From Methylacidimicrobium tartarophylax (GTDB taxonomy: Bacteria; Verrucomicrobiota; Verrucomicrobiia; Methylacidiphilales; Methylacidiphilaceae): 54,821 nucleotides of DNA. The stretch is taken from the NCBI RefSeq assembly GCF_902143375.2, contig NZ_CABFVA020000004.1, positions 1 to 54,821 of the forward strand. The letters run 5' to 3'. Both the position numbers and the translations under genes were made by a program. Position 1 is the stretch's first letter. Each line of letters opens with the position of its first letter. Below, one piece after another: positions 2,422-52,974 of the stretch. Under the pieces are notes generated by a model that searched no databases, was not told where the DNA came from, and saw nothing but the letters and a program-made list of their open reading frames with translations.

Positions 2422-3375
2422 GTGCGATCTCTTTTTTCCTTGGCTCCGACGGCCTTCGTGCTCGCCGCCGGACTTGGGACCCGCCTGCGACCTCTGACGG
2501 AGGGACGGCCCAAGCCGTTGATTCCCGTCGGTAACAAGCCGCTCATTACCTATGCGTTCGATCAGCTCATCCAGGTCGGCATCGAGGATTTCGTGGTGAA
2601 CACCCACCATGCTCCGGAAGCCTTCAGGTCGGTCTTTCCCGATGGGCGATACCGGGGCCGTGAAATTCGGTTGCGCCACGAGCCCGTCCTGCTCGATACC
2701 GCCGGCGGAGTGCGCAACGTAGGAGATCTTTTCAGGGACCGGCCCTTTCTGATCCACAACGGAGATATCCTGACCGACCTGCCGATCGAGGAGGCCGTCG
2801 AGCAGCATCTCGCAGGGGATGATCTGGCCACGCTCGTTCTCCGATCCGCCGGCCCTGCTCTTCGGGTCGGCTTCGATCCGAAGAGACGAAAGGTCATCGA
2901 CATCCACGGAAGCCTGGAAAGGGAGGATGCGCCTCGATTCCTCTATACGGGCATTGCGGTCCTCTCCCCCGGCTTTCTCCGCTGGATCCCGGTAAGCGGT
3001 CCCGTCTCGCTGATCCCCGTCTTCCTCGAGGTGATCCGCCGATCCGGAAAGATCGGGGGAATCGTCCTCGACCGGGGGCGCTGGTTCGACCTCGGGACCC
3101 GCGAAGCCTATTTGTCGGTCCACCGCGAACTAAGCCGGAATCCGGGCGAGTGGGCCCCCCTCCGCTGGGTGGACCCTACGGCTCAACTGGCTCCGGATGC
3201 TGTTCTCGAAGGTGCCACAGCAATCGGACCACGATGCCGAGTGGGGAGCGGGGCTCTTCTGCGCGACTCGGTCCTTTGGGAAGACGCGGAGGTCGCACCC
3301 GGCAGCAGCCTCGAGCGCTGCATCGTCCGCGACTCCCGTCTTGCCAAGGGGAACCTCAAGGACGCAGATGTTTAG
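2422..3375 (+). CDS. Sugar-1-phosphate nucleotidyltransferase, MurU-like
   Basis: Transfers a nucleotide to a sugar 1-phosphate. The N-terminal domain has the signature AAGLGTRLRPLTEGRPKPLIPVGNKP (about residues 15-40) and the active-site HNGDIL near 113. A C-terminal left-handed beta-helix tail of hexapeptide type (about 245-317) makes it longer than Pseudomonas MurU (about 220 residues) and closer to mannose-1-phosphate guanylyltransferases. The next gene is an AmgK-like kinase, the known partner of MurU in recycling N-acetylmuramic acid, so UDP-MurNAc formation is the best inference; GDP-mannose or another sugar nucleotide cannot be excluded. GTG start. The TAG stop is also the first three bases of repeat copy A. 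Confidence 0.82.
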   Translation: MRSLFSLAPTAFVLAAGLGTRLRPLTEGRPKPLIPVGNKPLITYAFDQLIQVGIEDFVVNTHHAPEAFRSVFPDGRYRGREIRLRHEPVLLDTAGGVRNVGDLFRDRPFLIHNGDILTDLPIEEAVEQHLAGDDLATLVLRSAGPALRVGFDPKRRKVIDIHGSLEREDAPRFLYTGIAVLSPGFLRWIPVSGPVSLIPVFLEVIRRSGKIGGIVLDRGRWFDLGTREAYLSVHRELSRNPGEWAPLRWVDPTAQLAPDAVLEGATAIGPRCRVGSGALLRDSVLWEDAEVAPGSSLERCIVRDSRLAKGNLKDADV

Positions 3376-3555
3376 CCGCCATTTCTCACAAGCTTGCTCC
3401 TGCGGCTTGCACAATGGGCTTGTCTGCTTCGTCGGGCTTGGTTTTCCATCCTTGCAGTATGTCCTCATACAACTCCGGTGGAAAACCGGCGTTGCGCTTC
3501 GATTCAAGCCCATTGGCAACGCCTCGGCTACGGGATGGATGAGAAATGGCGACTA
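3373..3555 (+). repeat. Dispersed structured repeat, copy A (183 bp)
   Basis: Lies between the nucleotidyltransferase stop codon and the kinase start codon, using the TAG stop as its first bases and ending two bases before the ATG. Its ends, TAGCCGCCATTTCTCA (3373-3388) and TGAGAAATGGCGACTA (3540-3555), pair at 15 of 16 positions but differ in sequence from the ends of copies C, D and E. Inside are the family landmarks CTCCTGCGGCTTGC, an outer stem GGTTTTCC / GGAAAACC, and an inner hairpin GTATG-TCCT-CATAC. Confidence 0.85.
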
Positions 3556-3556
3556 G

Positions 3557-4555
3557 ATGATGCTCCTCGATCAGCTCTTGGCGGAAACCGCCCGTCGCTT
3601 AGCCCTTGGACCGTTGGACCGGACCTCGATCACCAAGCTGGAAAAGGGAGGATCGGATCGGAGCTTTTACCGGATCCGCATCGAGCCGAAGCGTTCGCTG
3701 ATCCTCGTCCGCTACGGAGAGAGCCGGCCTGAAAACGCGCGGTACGGCCCCCTGGGAGAGTTTCTCCACTCCTTGGGAGTTCGCTGCCCCCGGGTCTATG
3801 GGCAGGATCCCGCGCACGGGCTCCTCTGGCTCGAGGATCTGGGAGACTCCGATCTATGGAGCTATCGCCATGCACCCTGGTCGGAATTGGGACCCCTCTA
3901 TCGTTCGGCCTTGCGGGAGATCTTCATCCTCCACGCCCGGGGCGCCGCAAGACTCGGAAGGCTATGGACGGAACCTCCGTTCACCCGGGAGCTCTATGCC
4001 TGGGAGCAAGCCTATTTTTTTACGAACTGTCTCGGGGGTTTCTTTCACCTGGAAGCGGGCACGCTTTCCCGCCTGTCGGCACTTCCGCGGCTGACCCGGA
4101 TCGCCGAGGCCCTCCCCGCCTTTCCGCGCCATCTGATCCATCGGGATTTTCAGTCGCAAAACGTTCTGATCCGAGCGGGGCACGCCTATATCATCGATTT
4201 CCAGGGGATGCGGCTCGGGCTGGCCTCCTACGATCTGGCCTCCCTCCTCTACGATCCCTACGTCGCCCTCGACGCGAAGCGGAGAGAGGAGCTCCGGAGC
4301 TATTATGGATCTTTGTGGCGAGAGGCCTCCCTAGCTCCGCCGGAAGATCTTGGAGAAGCGTTCGATTGGGCGGCGCTCCAGCGACTGATGCAGGCGCTGG
4401 GAGCCTACGGCTATCTTGGATTGGTCAAGAAAAAGGCGGAGTTCCTCCGCCACATTCCCGTTGCCTTGCGTCTCCTGGCCGAAGTGCTTCAGAGAATCCC
4501 GGGGCTCGATCCGCTCCGGGAACAGGTCGAGCTTTGCCTCGCCGCCCCGCGGTAG
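3557..4555 (+). CDS. Aminoglycoside-phosphotransferase-fold sugar kinase, AmgK-like
   Basis: 332-residue APH-fold kinase. The catalytic loop HLIHRDFQSQNVLI (near 193) and the metal-binding IIDFQGMRLG (near 212) are both intact. In Pseudomonas, AmgK phosphorylates the anomeric hydroxyl of MurNAc or GlcNAc and hands the product to MurU; the adjacent nucleotidyltransferase fits that recycling route, which bypasses de novo UDP-MurNAc synthesis and is linked to fosfomycin tolerance. The two genes are separated only by repeat copy A, whose 3' end is two bases from the start codon. No good Shine-Dalgarno sequence is visible, so translation may depend on upstream ribosomes or repeat structure. The substrate is inferred from the pairing. 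Confidence 0.82.
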   Translation: MMLLDQLLAETARRLALGPLDRTSITKLEKGGSDRSFYRIRIEPKRSLILVRYGESRPENARYGPLGEFLHSLGVRCPRVYGQDPAHGLLWLEDLGDSDLWSYRHAPWSELGPLYRSALREIFILHARGAARLGRLWTEPPFTRELYAWEQAYFFTNCLGGFFHLEAGTLSRLSALPRLTRIAEALPAFPRHLIHRDFQSQNVLIRAGHAYIIDFQGMRLGLASYDLASLLYDPYVALDAKRREELRSYYGSLWREASLAPPEDLGEAFDWAALQRLMQALGAYGYLGLVKKKAEFLRHIPVALRLLAEVLQRIPGLDPLREQVELCLAAPR

Positions 4556-4558
4556 AAT

Positions 4559-4580
4559 GTTTGTGAAACAGGCAGGCTGA
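4559..4580 (+). repeat. Solo 3' end of the structured repeat (fragment I)
   Basis: GTTTGTGAAACAGGCAGGCT closely matches the 3' terminal motif of copies C and D (TTTGTGAGACAAGCAGGCT). It begins four bases after the kinase stop codon. No internal repeat sequence accompanies it. Confidence 0.6.
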
Positions 4581-5458: not shown

Positions 5459-5545
5459 CAAAGGGGCTACAGGTAGTGCGAACGGTAATCGTTCCGACGC
5501 CATTTTCCGCTTGCGGCCTCCTCGAGGCATCGTGATCGTCCCTAC

Positions 5546-5725
5546 ATGACGGCGAAGAAGCTCTACGAGCGCGACTTTTACGCTGGGACGCAGGAGACGG
5601 CTCGGCTGTTGCGCGAGAGGCGGTTCGGCGATGTGGATCTGGCTAACCTAATCGAGGAGGTAGAAACCTTGGGGCGGAGTGAGAGGATATTTATTTCACC
5701 CGCGCGCAACTCGAGCAGCGCGTGA
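5546..5725 (+). pseudogene. DUF29-family gene, truncated after about 47 residues
   Basis: An ATG at 5546 opens MTAKKLYERDFYAGTQETAR and continues LLRERRFGDVDLANLIEEVETLGRSER, the typical N-terminus of DUF29 proteins (normally about 140-150 residues). The match stops at GRSER; a short unrelated tail of 12 residues and TGA at 5725 follow. The rest of the domain is not visible in other frames downstream, which points to a deletion rather than a simple frameshift. DUF29 genes are often multicopy and of unknown function. Confidence 0.65.
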
Positions 5726-9134: not shown

Positions 9135-9302
9135 CCAAGCCTGCTTGTCTCACACGGTTCATACCCGAGGCGGGACGCTGGCTTTCCCCTGGAGTTGTAT
9201 GACGGCATACGGCGAGGAGCGATAGAAACCCAAGCCCCCCACGAAGCAGCCGGGCACATTTCGCAAGCCGCAGGAGAACGCTTGGGAGATAGGCTGCTAG
9301 GC
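9135..9302 (-). repeat. Dispersed structured repeat, copy B (degenerate, about 168 bp)
   Basis: Reads on the minus strand as the family sequence: CAAGCGTTCTCCTGCGGCTT, then the inner hairpin GTATG-CCGT-CATAC, then GTGTGAGACAAGCAGGCTTG. One terminal repeat is damaged (CAGCCTATCTCCCA), and the outer stem is weakened to GGGTTTC / GAAAGCC with a G-T pair. It lies about 45 bases downstream of the SDR stop codon, in the same orientation as that gene. Confidence 0.8.
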
Positions 9303-10122: not shown

Positions 10123-10229
10123 GGAATTGCCAGGTGCGAGCAGGCTAAAACCCTATGCAGAAAAAGAAAAGCGAATCCGGACGGATTCCCGCTCGCCCGC
10201 GAGAGCCATGTCTGGCAAGCTTCCTTAGT

Positions 10230-10262
10230 CTGCCTCTCTCCCAAGCGTTCTCCTGCGGCTTC
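10230..10262 (+). repeat. Truncated copy of the structured repeat (fragment F)
   Basis: TCTCTCCCAAGCGTTCTCCT followed by GCGGCTT is nearly identical to the 5' portion of copies B and D. Downstream only a weak trace remains (GGCTGGGTTTTGG). It sits in the divergent region between the SDR and hydrolase genes, so it is one of the few pieces not directly after a stop codon. Confidence 0.65.
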
Positions 10263-36469: not shown

Positions 36470-36808
36470 ATGGGCGCCATCTTGATCCGCTGGGCGATCC
36501 TCGCCATCGCCATCTTCGTCGCCGCCCACCTCAAGTTCATCGGGATTCGCTACGAAAGCGTGCCCGCACTCCTGGTCGCGGCGCTCGTCCTCGGTATCAT
36601 CAACGCGCTGCTCAAGCCGATCTTCGTCACTCTCTCCTTTCCCCTTATCCTTCTGACCTTCGGTCTCTTCCTGGTCTTGATCAACGCGCTACTGCTCTAC
36701 TGGACAGGGAAACTCGTCTCGGGCTTCATCGTCCCCACCTTCGGCTCGGCGATCGGTGGGGCTCTCGTGATCAGCCTCGTCCGGCTGGCACTGGAAGGCT
36801 GGCTCTAG
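36470..36808 (+). CDS. Phage-holin-family (YvlD-like) four-helix membrane protein
   Basis: 112 residues, four membrane helices. ILIRWAILAIAIFVAAHLKFIGIRYES and ALVLGIINALLKPIFVTLSFPLILLTFGLFLVLINALLLYWTGKLVSGF match the Phage_holin_4_2 / YvlD family, which despite its name is a widespread chromosomal membrane protein of unknown role. GAGAAAAGAG lies upstream of the ATG. The TAG stop is the first three bases of a solo repeat end. Confidence 0.85.
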   Translation: MGAILIRWAILAIAIFVAAHLKFIGIRYESVPALLVAALVLGIINALLKPIFVTLSFPLILLTFGLFLVLINALLLYWTGKLVSGFIVPTFGSAIGGALVISLVRLALEGWL

Positions 36809-36826
36809 CCGCCCTTTCTCACCAGC
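36806..36826 (+). repeat. Solo 5' end of the structured repeat, copy-A type (fragment G)
   Basis: TAGCCGCCCTTTCTCACCAG matches the 5' end of copy A (TAGCCGCCATTTCTCACAAG) at 18 of 20 positions. As in copy A, it starts on the stop codon of the upstream gene. No clear core or partner end follows. Confidence 0.6.
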
Positions 36827-36841
36827 GCGAGCTTTCTCGCG
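36826..36841. other. Perfect GC-rich hairpin after the holin-like gene
   Basis: CGCGAG and CTCGCG form a 6-bp stem with a CTTT loop, 18 bases after the stop. A run of T is missing, so simple intrinsic termination is doubtful, but it may end the transcript together with the adjacent repeat fragment. Confidence 0.35.
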
Positions 36842-36972
36842 GGAGAGGTGCAGCCCCGAGTCGCTTGCGAGGAGTTTCGGCAGGGAAGAGATCCTTGTGA
36901 GGTAGGATTGAGCAGGATTTCCATTCAATTGTCCCCTTCCCAAAGGGTGCTCCGCCCCGAAAGATCGGAGCC

Positions 36973-43916: not shown

Positions 43917-44924
43917 TCAGCCCGGAATCCCGCCTCCTTCCAGCGGAACGAACTGGTACCATTGGCTCCAATGGGCCGCGATTTCGGGAACCAGCAGATC
44001 GAAGACCTGCCGGCTCGCGGCTGCCAAGGCCTCCTCCCTGGACCCTTGGTCCGAGAAAAAGAGCGGCGGGCTGCACCAGACTCGATAACGCCGGTTGGGC
44101 TTTTCGGTTACCGTCACCACGAAGACCGGAACTGCCTCGAGCATCGCCAGATAGAGGATTCCCGTGGAGACCGGCAAGCGGCCATGGGGAAGACGGACGG
44201 AGACCCGGCTAGTCGGAGAGGGCCGATCAACCAGAGCCGCGACAAATTTCCCTTGCGAGAGCTTCTTGCGAACCGCCAGAAACGAAAAAGCGTCTTCTCC
44301 GACCTCCAGCGTCTCGACCCCCCAGCGGCGGCGGTATGCCGATCGCCACAGAGAGAGGTTCGGGTCCGGTTCGGGGAAGGTGAGAATCACCGTTGAGAAA
44401 CCGAAGCTTGAGAGCAGCGCGCCTCCGAGCTCAAAGAGTCCGAGGTGGCCCGTCAGGAGGAGCGCCCCCTTCCCCTGGCGGTGTGCGAAGGCAAGCCCCT
44501 CGTAGCCGATCCGCTCCTCGATGAGCCCCCGGGCACAGGCGACGGATCGGCTACCAAGATAGAAATAGTCGCCGATCGCCTTGCCGAAGTTTCCATAGAC
44601 GTTTCGGGAGTCCGCTGCCCGGACGGGCCGATCGAGAATCAGTCGTAAATTCCGGGCAACGACCGCGGCGTGCGCGCGGCGAAAGAAGGCGAAAGCCAGG
44701 GCCGATCCCGCGCCGATCCCGCGCACCACCCCTCTCGGTAGGAAGCGCGCCGCCAGAACGCCGAGCGCAAACCAGGACGAACGGTAGAGGGGACGGGAGA
44801 CGGCCGCTCCCCGGGGGGCGGAGGTGTCTGGCCTGCGTGTCTCACCCGCGTTCTCCTGCAGCTTGGGCAATGGACTTGTCTGCTTCGCTGGAACTTGGTT
44901 TTCCCCCTCGCAGGTTGTCGTCAT
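43917..44924 (-). CDS. Lipid A acyltransferase-like (LpxL/HtrB family)
   Basis: 335 residues as drawn. RSSWFALGVLAARFLPRGVVRGIGAG (N-terminal anchor), LLTGHLGLFELGGALLSSFG (HX4E, here HLGLFE) and VALVDRPSPTSRVSVRL match LpxL/HtrB acyltransferases, which transfer acyl chains to lipid A in the inner membrane. No ATG, GTG or TTG exists between the conserved anchor and repeat copy C, so the start codon (ATG 44924, or TTG near 44864) lies inside the repeat. The first about 35 residues are therefore repeat-derived. Confidence 0.85.
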   Translation of the reverse strand: MTTTCEGENQVPAKQTSPLPKLQENAGETRRPDTSAPRGAAVSRPLYRSSWFALGVLAARFLPRGVVRGIGAGSALAFAFFRRAHAAVVARNLRLILDRPVRAADSRNVYGNFGKAIGDYFYLGSRSVACARGLIEERIGYEGLAFAHRQGKGALLLTGHLGLFELGGALLSSFGFSTVILTFPEPDPNLSLWRSAYRRRWGVETLEVGEDAFSFLAVRKKLSQGKFVAALVDRPSPTSRVSVRLPHGRLPVSTGILYLAMLEAVPVFVVTVTEKPNRRYRVWCSPPLFFSDQGSREEALAAASRQVFDLLVPEIAAHWSQWYQFVPLEGGGIPG

Positions 44925-45011
44925 ACCACGCCGGGGGAAAACCTGCTCCCCGCCTTGCCTCCAGGACCATGCGCCGCGCCTCGGATAGGAACTTTGTGAG
45001 ACGCGCAGGCT
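44830..45011 (+). repeat. Dispersed structured repeat, copy C (182 bp)
   Basis: Ends GGCCTGCGTGTCTCAC and GTGAGACGCGCAGGC pair with one G-T step. Internal outer stem GGTTTTCCCC / GGGGAAAACC is perfect (10 bp); the inner hairpin is GTTGT / CATAC type. It starts 25 bases downstream of the uvrB stop and overlaps the 5' end of the LpxL-like reading frame, for which it provides the start codon. Confidence 0.85.
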
Positions 45012-45036
45012 GCCATCGCTTTACCCGTCCAATGGC

Positions 45037-49219: not shown

Positions 49220-49729
49220 TCACCACCAGGTGCCTGGATCCCAGCCCGCTCCCAGATTGCCCTCCTGGTAGGGACCGGGAGAGTAGAACGGCTCTTGCCC
49301 GAAGCGGCGCGGCCAGAGATAGACCTCTTTCGCGACCACCAACGGCTGGCCTTTGATCAGCCCCGCAAACTTCCCCCAGACAGTGACGACCCGACCCCAC
49401 GGGTAGGCGCTCGCAGCGACCTTTTCGCGGATCTCCGCCACAAAATGCCCTCGGCTTTTTGCGTCGCTGCGGGGACGGTCTCTTTCGTCCAACGGTAAGC
49501 CGTCGATTTCGATCCAGGTCCGATCGCGGAGGCTCTCGACCCGAACGACTCTTCCCCCCAGGAGCGCCGGCTTCCCCCGATAAGCTTCCGGATGGGAGCG
49601 AAGGGCGGCAACGGGAGCCTGATTCGCCGTCGCGGTCCGGACCGACTCCGGAACCGGACTGCAGCCCTGGAAAAGAAGGAGAACCATCGCTGCGAATTCC
49701 CCCCACCTCTCCCCTCCTTTCCTCCTCAT
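49220..49729 (-). CDS. Slp-like outer-membrane lipoprotein
   Basis: 169 residues. Lipoprotein signal FAAMVLLLFQGC with lipobox FQGC. Then the Slp pattern seen in the 1503 gene: ALRSHPEAYRGKPALLGGRVVRVESLRDRTWIEIDGLPLD, and later VTVWGKFAGLIKGQPLVVAKEVYLWP. It lacks the Gly/Met tail. Divergent from the TonB-like gene; the shared upstream region carries phased direct repeats. Confidence 0.85.
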   Translation of the reverse strand: MRRKGGERWGEFAAMVLLLFQGCSPVPESVRTATANQAPVAALRSHPEAYRGKPALLGGRVVRVESLRDRTWIEIDGLPLDERDRPRSDAKSRGHFVAEIREKVAASAYPWGRVVTVWGKFAGLIKGQPLVVAKEVYLWPRRFGQEPFYSPGPYQEGNLGAGWDPGTWW

Positions 49730-49806
49730 ACGCCTCCGTTTCGGATCAATCTCCCGGAGGATCGGCGAGGGCACAAGCTCAAATCCCGCCCCAAAAGGAG
49801 CTTCGT

Positions 49807-49845
49807 TTTTGACCTTCTTTTGACACGCGCCCTTCCGGTTTTGAC
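49807..49845. promoter_or_regulatory. Three helically phased TTTTGAC direct repeats
   Basis: TTTTGAC occurs at 49807-49813, 49818-49824 and 49839-49845; starts are 11 and 21 bases apart, one and two helical turns. It lies between the divergent slp-like and tonB-like genes. Evenly phased direct repeats are typical binding sites of dimeric response regulators (Pho-box style). The protein is unknown. Confidence 0.4.
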
Positions 49846-49874
49846 TCTCGTCCGTCGCCGAGAGGGACGAGAGT
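49844..49874. other. 10-bp perfect inverted repeat upstream of the tonB-like gene
   Basis: ACTCTCGTCC and GGACGAGAGT pair perfectly around an 11-base loop. No T-run follows, so it is more likely an operator or an mRNA leader hairpin than a terminator. The first arm overlaps the last TTTTGAC repeat. Confidence 0.45.
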
Positions 49875-49978
49875 GGAATAGCACGGAAGATGCGGCTCCT
49901 TCGATCAGGCCGTTCGACTCCGCTGAATCTGCGTTTTCTGGCATGATTTCTGCTTTATCAAAATCAGGAAAGAGATCC

Positions 49979-50650
49979 ATGACAACGGCACTTCTTGAAA
50001 GACGGGCAACGCGGCTCGAAGCAAAGAGAAGCCAGGAGATCCAGCCTGCGGCCGACCAGTCTGCCGGATGGGGTTTTTGGCCTGCGATCGCTCTGGCCAT
50101 CCTCTTTCACGCGGGAGTGGCCTGTCTGATCCTGCCCGGAGTTCCAGGGAGCCCCGTGCCGGCGATCGCGCCGCTCTCCCTGCAATCCTCGCCGAACTCC
50201 TCGAACGTCGAACTCATGGACGAAATCCCCGTGCCCCCAAGCGCGGGTACTCCACTGCCGGAGGAACGCAAGGCCGAAGAGCCATCCGTCCTGCCGACGC
50301 CCGTGCCCCCCATTCCAAAGAAGCCGCTGGTTGCCCGGCAGGCGAGCCGCTCCCACGCCGCTCGTCCCACTCAGACGCCGCACAACCGGCCTCCGGCGCT
50401 CGGCGGCGGGCTTGTCCTCTCAGAACCCCCTTACCCCTATGAGGCCCGGTGCCAGAGGCTCGAAGGCAAGGTGACCTTGCAGGTCTTCGTGCAAGAGGGT
50501 CATGTCATCTGGGTCGAAGTTCTTGCGAGTTCCGGGCATCATCTCTTGGATGGGAGTGCCAAGCAGTGGGCGCTCCATCACTGGCGCTTTCCCGGAATCG
50601 CGTCCGGTTCCTTCACCGAAGCGGTGACCTTCAGCCTGGACGGAGTCTAA
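49979..50650 (+). CDS. TonB-like energy-transducing protein
   Basis: 223 residues from ATG 49979 with GGAAAGAG upstream. One membrane helix (about 32-56), a Pro-rich periplasmic linker (VPPSAGTPLPEER, TPVPPIPKK) and a C-terminal TonB domain: PPYPYEARCQRLEGKVTLQVFVQEGHVIWVEVLASSGHHLLDGSAKQWALHHWRF. It would carry energy from ExbB/ExbD to an outer-membrane receptor, none of which is encoded here. The stop TAA is immediately followed by repeat copy D. Confidence 0.9.
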   Translation: MTTALLERRATRLEAKRSQEIQPAADQSAGWGFWPAIALAILFHAGVACLILPGVPGSPVPAIAPLSLQSSPNSSNVELMDEIPVPPSAGTPLPEERKAEEPSVLPTPVPPIPKKPLVARQASRSHAARPTQTPHNRPPALGGGLVLSEPPYPYEARCQRLEGKVTLQVFVQEGHVIWVEVLASSGHHLLDGSAKQWALHHWRFPGIASGSFTEAVTFSLDGV

Positions 50651-50771
50651 CCTGCATATCTCTCAAGCGTTCTCCTGCGGCTTGCAAAACGGACCTAGCT
50701 GCTTCATTGCGCCTTGCATTCAGGCCCATCCGCCGCGCCTCGGGTACAAACTTTGTGAGACAAGCAGGCTA
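50649..50771 (+). repeat. Dispersed structured repeat, copy D (internal deletion, 123 bp)
   Basis: Starts on the tonB-like stop codon. Contains CAAGCGTTCTCCTGCGGCTT at the 5' side and ACTTTGTGAGACAAGCAGGC at the 3' side. The whole central hairpin is missing; compared with copy E the deletion runs between two CGCCTTG words, leaving one. Ends are imperfectly paired (CCTGCATATCTCTCA). Confidence 0.85.
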
Positions 50772-50901
50772 AGCCGCCATCCCTCGCGAATGGCAACGGC
50801 CTCCTAGGCAGCCGCCTACCAGCCCTGACAAAGCTCTCCTAATCCGAATGGGCTGCTCCGGAACGGCGGGCTGCGCCACTCGCGTGTCGCCGACCTGCGG
50901 A

Positions 50902-52686: not shown

Positions 52687-52776
52687 GATCTACCCCCTGC
52701 TCTAGCGAGTCCGCGCCCGCCCGGCAAGACTCTCTCCTCCTTTTCCTACCTATTCCCTCTCCGGCTCGTCGACATC

Positions 52777-52961
52777 TAGCCAGCATGTCTCACAAAGTTC
52801 GTACCCGAGGCGTGGCGGATGGGCCTGGATGCAAGGCGGGCCGCAAGTTTTCCCCCAAAGCTGTATGACGACATACTGCGCGGAGGGAAAACCAAGGCGC
52901 AACGAAGCAGACAGGTCCATTTCGCGAGCCGCAGGAGAATGTTTGTGAGACATGCTGGCTA
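52777..52961 (-). repeat. Dispersed structured repeat, copy E (185 bp, perfect terminal inverted repeats)
   Basis: TAGCCAGCATGTCTCACAAA at 52777-52796 is repeated as its exact reverse complement at 52942-52961 (20 of 20). On the minus strand the core reads CATTCTCCTGCGGCTCGCGA, then a stem GTTTTCCC / GGGGAAAAC and inner hairpin GTATG-TCGT-CATAC. It sits 13 bases after the ATPase stop codon, in the ATPase-permease gap of the metal transporter. Confidence 0.9.
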
Positions 52962-52974
52962 GGATTGCCCTCCT

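Follow-up and report, generated by a model that had tools for sequence, protein, structure and literature searches.

REP elements are 20-40 bp long and have no target duplication, and Correia/NEMIS of Neisseria is an example of a MITE. IS1247 of Paracoccus, an insertion sequence of the IS1380 family, is 1672 bp in size, with inverted repeats given as IR 16/13 and a 5-bp duplication (PMC3281130). IS1380 has served as an outgroup for piggyBac, whose duplication is TTAA and, more rarely, TTAG, CTAA, or TCAA (PMC10813416). Paired changes can arise during replication when the template is switched from one arm of an inverted repeat to the other, a source described in PMC8794818.

The repeat described here occurs in five copies (A to E) in a 54,821-nucleotide window (the whole stretch of DNA that was analysed) from Methylacidimicrobium tartarophylax 4AC, and it almost certainly constitutes a MITE family, as it is short and non-coding, has inverted ends, target duplications, and empty sites, and comprises many copies falling into subfamilies. 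MITEs had been named among the nearest concepts when the sequence was read on its own. Taken as a whole, the data make it very probable that this is a MITE family of Methylacidimicrobium mobilized in trans by an IS1380-type transposase, inserting at YTAR and having arms that correct each other. The family members and related sequences of the window are as follows.

3372-3556, plus strand: copy A, full MITE, with target duplication TTAG (3372-3375) and CTAG (3553-3556); model match; the site is occupied in G003 but empty in both G001 and G005.
9136-9301 (model 9136-9300), minus strand: copy B, MITE without about 27 bp in the 3' half; model match.
44828-45012 (model 44828-45013), plus strand: copy C, full MITE, with the target duplication decayed to CTGG and CTGC (the empty G002 site is CTAC-like); model match.
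50647-50772, plus strand: copy D, short-form MITE of 126 bp including its CTAA/CTAA duplications; model match.
52776-52962, minus strand: copy E, full MITE, with target duplications CTAG (52776-52779) and CTAG (52959-52962); model match; element-free site in G002.
10225-10261, plus strand: relic of a MITE left end from the repeat search; weak model match at 10243-10261 only.
4547-4578, plus strand: possible relic of a MITE right end from the repeat search (family D3); no model match.
36804-36930, plus strand: relic of about 126 bp from one end of an IS1380-family element, preceded by CTAG; window search.

The five copies lie where the sequence-only reading had placed them. All are matched by a covariance model (E from 1e-34 to 3e-67), repeats at the same sites are seen in a separate repeat search of the window, and the terminal-end pattern gives six window matches against a chance expectation of 0.02. 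The model was trained on 28 copies with copies A, B, C, and E among them, so that the independent support comes from the repeat detection and the end-pattern count. The earlier list named these five copies correctly but overlooked the two end fragments and the relic at 36804-36930. Moreover, the first 4 bp of each end (CTAG, TTAG, or CTAA), which had been counted as element sequence, are the target duplication. The ends of copy E are perfect inverted repeats, as had been stated, but not of 20 bp: they measure 21 bp with the CTAG duplication and 17 bp without it. Copy B, described as near-full, is present but shortened in its 3' half. The 5500-5692 segment of the window, considered as another repeat or MITE, appears to be a multicopy protein-coding stretch, with several copies in G003 and, in 4AC, three more that have diverged to 77-83%.

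Full copies are about 177 bp long (185-187 bp counting both target duplications), and a short form is about 118 bp long (about 126 bp with the duplications); both are non-coding and carry no transposase gene. Copy D, also taken for a near-full copy, belongs to the short form, and its interpretation as a truncated copy was abandoned: 4AC holds a minimum of seven more copies, each 125-128 bp long, hence copy D is an amplified variant and not a broken copy. The terminal inverted repeats of about 17 bp read CCTGCATGTCTCACAA, CCGCCATTTCTCACAA, or CGGCCATTTCTCACAA in 4AC and AP8, the AP8 copies starting with CGGCCATTTCTCACAAGC and ending with its inverse. The inner GTATG/CATAC hairpin and the GGTTTTCC/GGAAAACC stem reported earlier are found in most copies.

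The 4AC genome is a draft of 2,327,085 bp in 137 contigs, the largest of 140,500 bp, and contains 59 loci matched by the model end to end (E of about 1e-13 or better) and 13 partial matches at contig ends. The former estimate of hundreds of copies per genome is thus several fold too high for these 2.33 Mb. The partial matches, considered as ends of a larger autonomous element, are instead assembly breaks within the repeat. At least 13 contig ends of 4AC lie inside the MITE (C75, C78, C80, C94, C97, C115, C123, C133, and others), and the repeat accounts for at least 13 of the breaks among the 137 contigs of this short-read assembly. In the complete genome of M. thermophilum AP8 (G006; 2,300,970 bp) the model gives 83 matches at E < 0.01, a figure in which quasi-palindromic copies may be counted once on each strand, and 46 copies were extracted. 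Median nearest-neighbour identity is 0.994 in AP8 versus 0.927 in 4AC; the AP8 copies are young. The genome-wide search, which had been proposed together with the repeat, found the family multi-copy and present in all the genus relatives searched (7/7 Methylacidimicrobium genomes), with 0/33 in other genomes of the order; the family is restricted to the genus Methylacidimicrobium.

The AP8 copies are flanked by exact 4-bp duplications, mostly CTAG, but also TTAA, TTAG, CTAA, TTGA, TGAA, and CTAT, and those of young copies are of the YTAR type. As some of these repeats are non-palindromic (TTGA/TTGA, CTAA/CTAA, TTAG/TTAG, TGAA/TGAA, CTAT/CTAT), the duplication is of 4 bp and not of TA. The 4AC flanks (TA..TA) had suggested an IS630-type element with TA duplication, a reading contradicted by the AP8 repeats. 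PF13358 was not found in the 4AC or AP8 genomes. The one DDE_3 transposase among the genus genomes searched belongs to an IS630-family element in G003 (L081, contig C12) with ends near TATAGTCTCACGCAA; this PF13358 element was rejected as a partner, its ends being different from those of the MITE.

Element-free sites in sister species confirm the insertions, clearly for copies A and E and less sharply for C and D. The copy A site consists of a single TTAG in G001 and G005, and the joined flanks of copy E align without a break to G002, where the site reads CGAG. Copies C and D are absent in G002 and others, the joined flanks being matched in looser alignments. G003 carries copy A with its interior partly missing; the stretch of N at that place could be a gap in the assembly.

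In two cases the duplication has restored a stop codon. The left TAG of copy A serves as stop codon to the upstream ORF 2422-3375 (in the sister species devoid of copy A, the next ATG lies closely after the site), and the left TAA of copy D does so for ORF 49592-50650, which codes for a TonB_C domain. Since YTAR contains TAG or TAA, many of the targets offered by this GC-rich genome would be stop codons, and as the duplication retains the stop, insertions at such places would do little harm and could last. In AP8, 36 of the 46 copies lie on a tetranucleotide closing an open frame 90 or more codons in length, compared with 50 of 90 background YTAR sites, the latter being taken from the 4AC window, i.e., from a species other than AP8; the frames were counted as open frames, unchecked as real genes. 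This excess is modest, and only 12 of 30 copies in 4AC lie on such a tetranucleotide. Stop-codon targeting as a special mechanism was therefore rejected; target composition and the removal of harmful insertions are enough to explain the placement.

An exact 4-bp target duplication indicates a DDE transposase, and one with near-matching ends, sought as had been recommended, is present in the genus in the form of an IS1380-family element. In AP8 this element is 1,710 bp (1.71 kb) long, with the ends CCCCCATTTCTCACCA and CCCCGATTTCTCACCA and the variants CCGCCATTTCTCACCA and CCGCCATATCTCACCA, and its 462-aa open frame is an IS1380 transposase (NF033539, E 2.7e-118; PF13701, E 1.6e-152). The AP8 copies are 97-99% identical to each other, that in G001 shows 85% DNA identity, and the element is also found in G003 and 4AC; the MITE-rich genomes AP8, G003, and 4AC carry this lineage at 94-100% protein identity. 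Depending on the MITE subfamily, 12-15 of the 16 bases of the IS end CCNCCATWTCTCACCA match the MITE ends. The element makes 4-bp duplications (CTAG, TTAG, TTAA, and ATAG), of which the first three are common to it and the MITE and ATAG is confined to the IS, with CTAT, TTGA, and TGAA confined to the MITE. These near-matching ends and the like target duplication make the IS1380-family element the best candidate for the mover, and, judging from sequence comparison, it is very probably the source of the transposase.

Beyond the ends, the MITE interior and the IS have nothing in common except chance words, and the MITE was thus rejected as a simple deletion derivative of the IS. The window contains no transposase gene by either an IS1380 query or a PF01609 scan, as had been noted, but it does hold the relic at 36804-36930, where the probable partner is likely to have once been present as well. 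The single assembled full-length IS of 4AC (C52) has CTAG on both sides and carries a frameshifted transposase gene, so that any present-day movement of the MITE in 4AC is hypothetical. In G005 the four best IS1380 transposase copies all end at residue 369, with the C-terminal remainder about 2-4 kb off (e.g., G005:C1:1579282-1580370 and 1584184-1584465), and the IS seems to have been invaded by something at one place before it spread.

The frameshift in 4AC also leaves some room for a different mover, either an IS1182-family element or a DDE element absent from the assemblies. AP8 has IS1182-family copies with CTAG at both ends (L186, about 1049-2627; L187, about 1115-2693) that lie back to back with MITEs. 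Their ends, CAGCCTGTCGGACTT, are unlike those of the MITE, in contrast to the matching IS1380 ends, and on these grounds IS1182 was rejected as the partner; movement by any other transposase is unlikely. MITEs of AP8 stand back to back with copies of both IS1182 and IS1380, having CTAG in common, and so form tandem chains.

Slightly less probable still is that the repeat is a structured RNA (a terminator or a processing or regulatory hairpin), spread by transposition and kept for a host function, with its fold under selection. The element does fold on itself as claimed earlier, copy E doing so over its entire length, with z of -10 on one strand and -10.8 on the other, and the copies sit at gene ends. 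When 52 copies are aligned, both partners have changed in 18 of 65 hairpin pairs, more than in any of 500 shuffles or any slid control, and the cells so changed number 111 against 34.5 in the shuffles; the structure tested is the fold of copy E, itself a row of the alignment, and the copies form few subfamilies, so that most of the changed cells repeat few events, with subfamily relatedness retained in the shuffles. Changes on both sides are also found in the internal stems, which could mean selection on the folded form. However, the private single changes comprise 11 transitions that keep a G-U pair, 15 transitions that break the pair, and 27 pair-breaking transversions, i.e., they show no preference for pairing, the pair-breaking ones being no less frequent than the pair-keeping ones. 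Moreover, several of the both-sides changes are transversions, which have no G-U step, copy A has persisted in G003 with part of its interior missing, there is no Rfam match, and the orthologous sites are largely without copies. Covariation was for these reasons, subfamily structure and the private changes above all, rejected as proof of RNA function. As pairing is not spared by the private changes, a switch of template from arm to arm is tentatively favoured over RNA selection as the origin of the both-sides changes. The concerted arm-to-arm changes offer a data set with which structural selection on RNA could be told apart from mutation by template switching, a recognized pitfall in taking covariation as a sign of RNA function.

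We thus propose that the IS1380-family transposase would recognize the MITE ends in trans, and that the MITE would be inserted into staggered cuts at YTAR, the repair of which would yield the 4-bp repeat. Copies would then drift, and their long fold-back shape would be maintained mainly by template switching in replication, one arm correcting the other. The full combination, an IS1380-tied MITE that is all hairpin, whose arms undergo concerted evolution through template switching, and which enters stop-restoring YTAR sites and two-base intergenic gaps harmlessly, is put forward tentatively, as a picture somewhat more apt to need revision than to stand in every part. In the open-licence full-text literature searched, there was no earlier MITE in Methylacidimicrobium, no IS1380-linked MITE, and no description of a family with this layout, in agreement with the sequence-only reading, which knew of no named one. 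The reading was therefore not refuted on the terms set out with it: the copies are many, the relatives in the genus carry them, and no described IS-derived MITE turned up in that literature. The repeat adds a new family to an already known kind of element, with no evidence of a host function. It defines a non-autonomous element and its probable IS1380-family partner in verrucomicrobial methanotrophs, and provides a natural set of sequenced insertions for the study of IS1380 target choice.

Among the known systems, REP/BIME palindromes, which owe their spread to a RAYT (Y1) transposase and had also been named as a near concept, resemble the repeat in being palindromic, dispersed, and mostly extragenic (intergenic), but unlike the small REPs it has 17-bp terminal inverted repeats, exact 4-bp target duplications where none are expected, and empty sites in which the tetranucleotide stands once, which makes this origin extremely improbable. 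The likeness to piggyBac, a eukaryotic system unlike the bacterial MITE, concerns target sites alone, its TTAA-like 4-bp duplications having rarer variants that resemble those of the MITE, and is a lead. The IS1380 family is closer, with near-matching terminal repeats, a short direct repeat of 4-5 bp, and a DDE transposase of the family found in the MITE's own genus; unlike IS1380 elements, the repeat has no transposase gene, and its unrelated interior folds back over the whole length. MITEAba12 of Acinetobacter (PMC6382973) is like the repeat in its small size, non-coding nature, inverted ends, and target duplication, and MITEs in general share its high copy number and mostly intergenic location. 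What sets the Methylacidimicrobium family apart from other MITEs is its putative IS1380 partner, its 4-bp YTAR duplication, and the formation of one hairpin by nearly its entire length.
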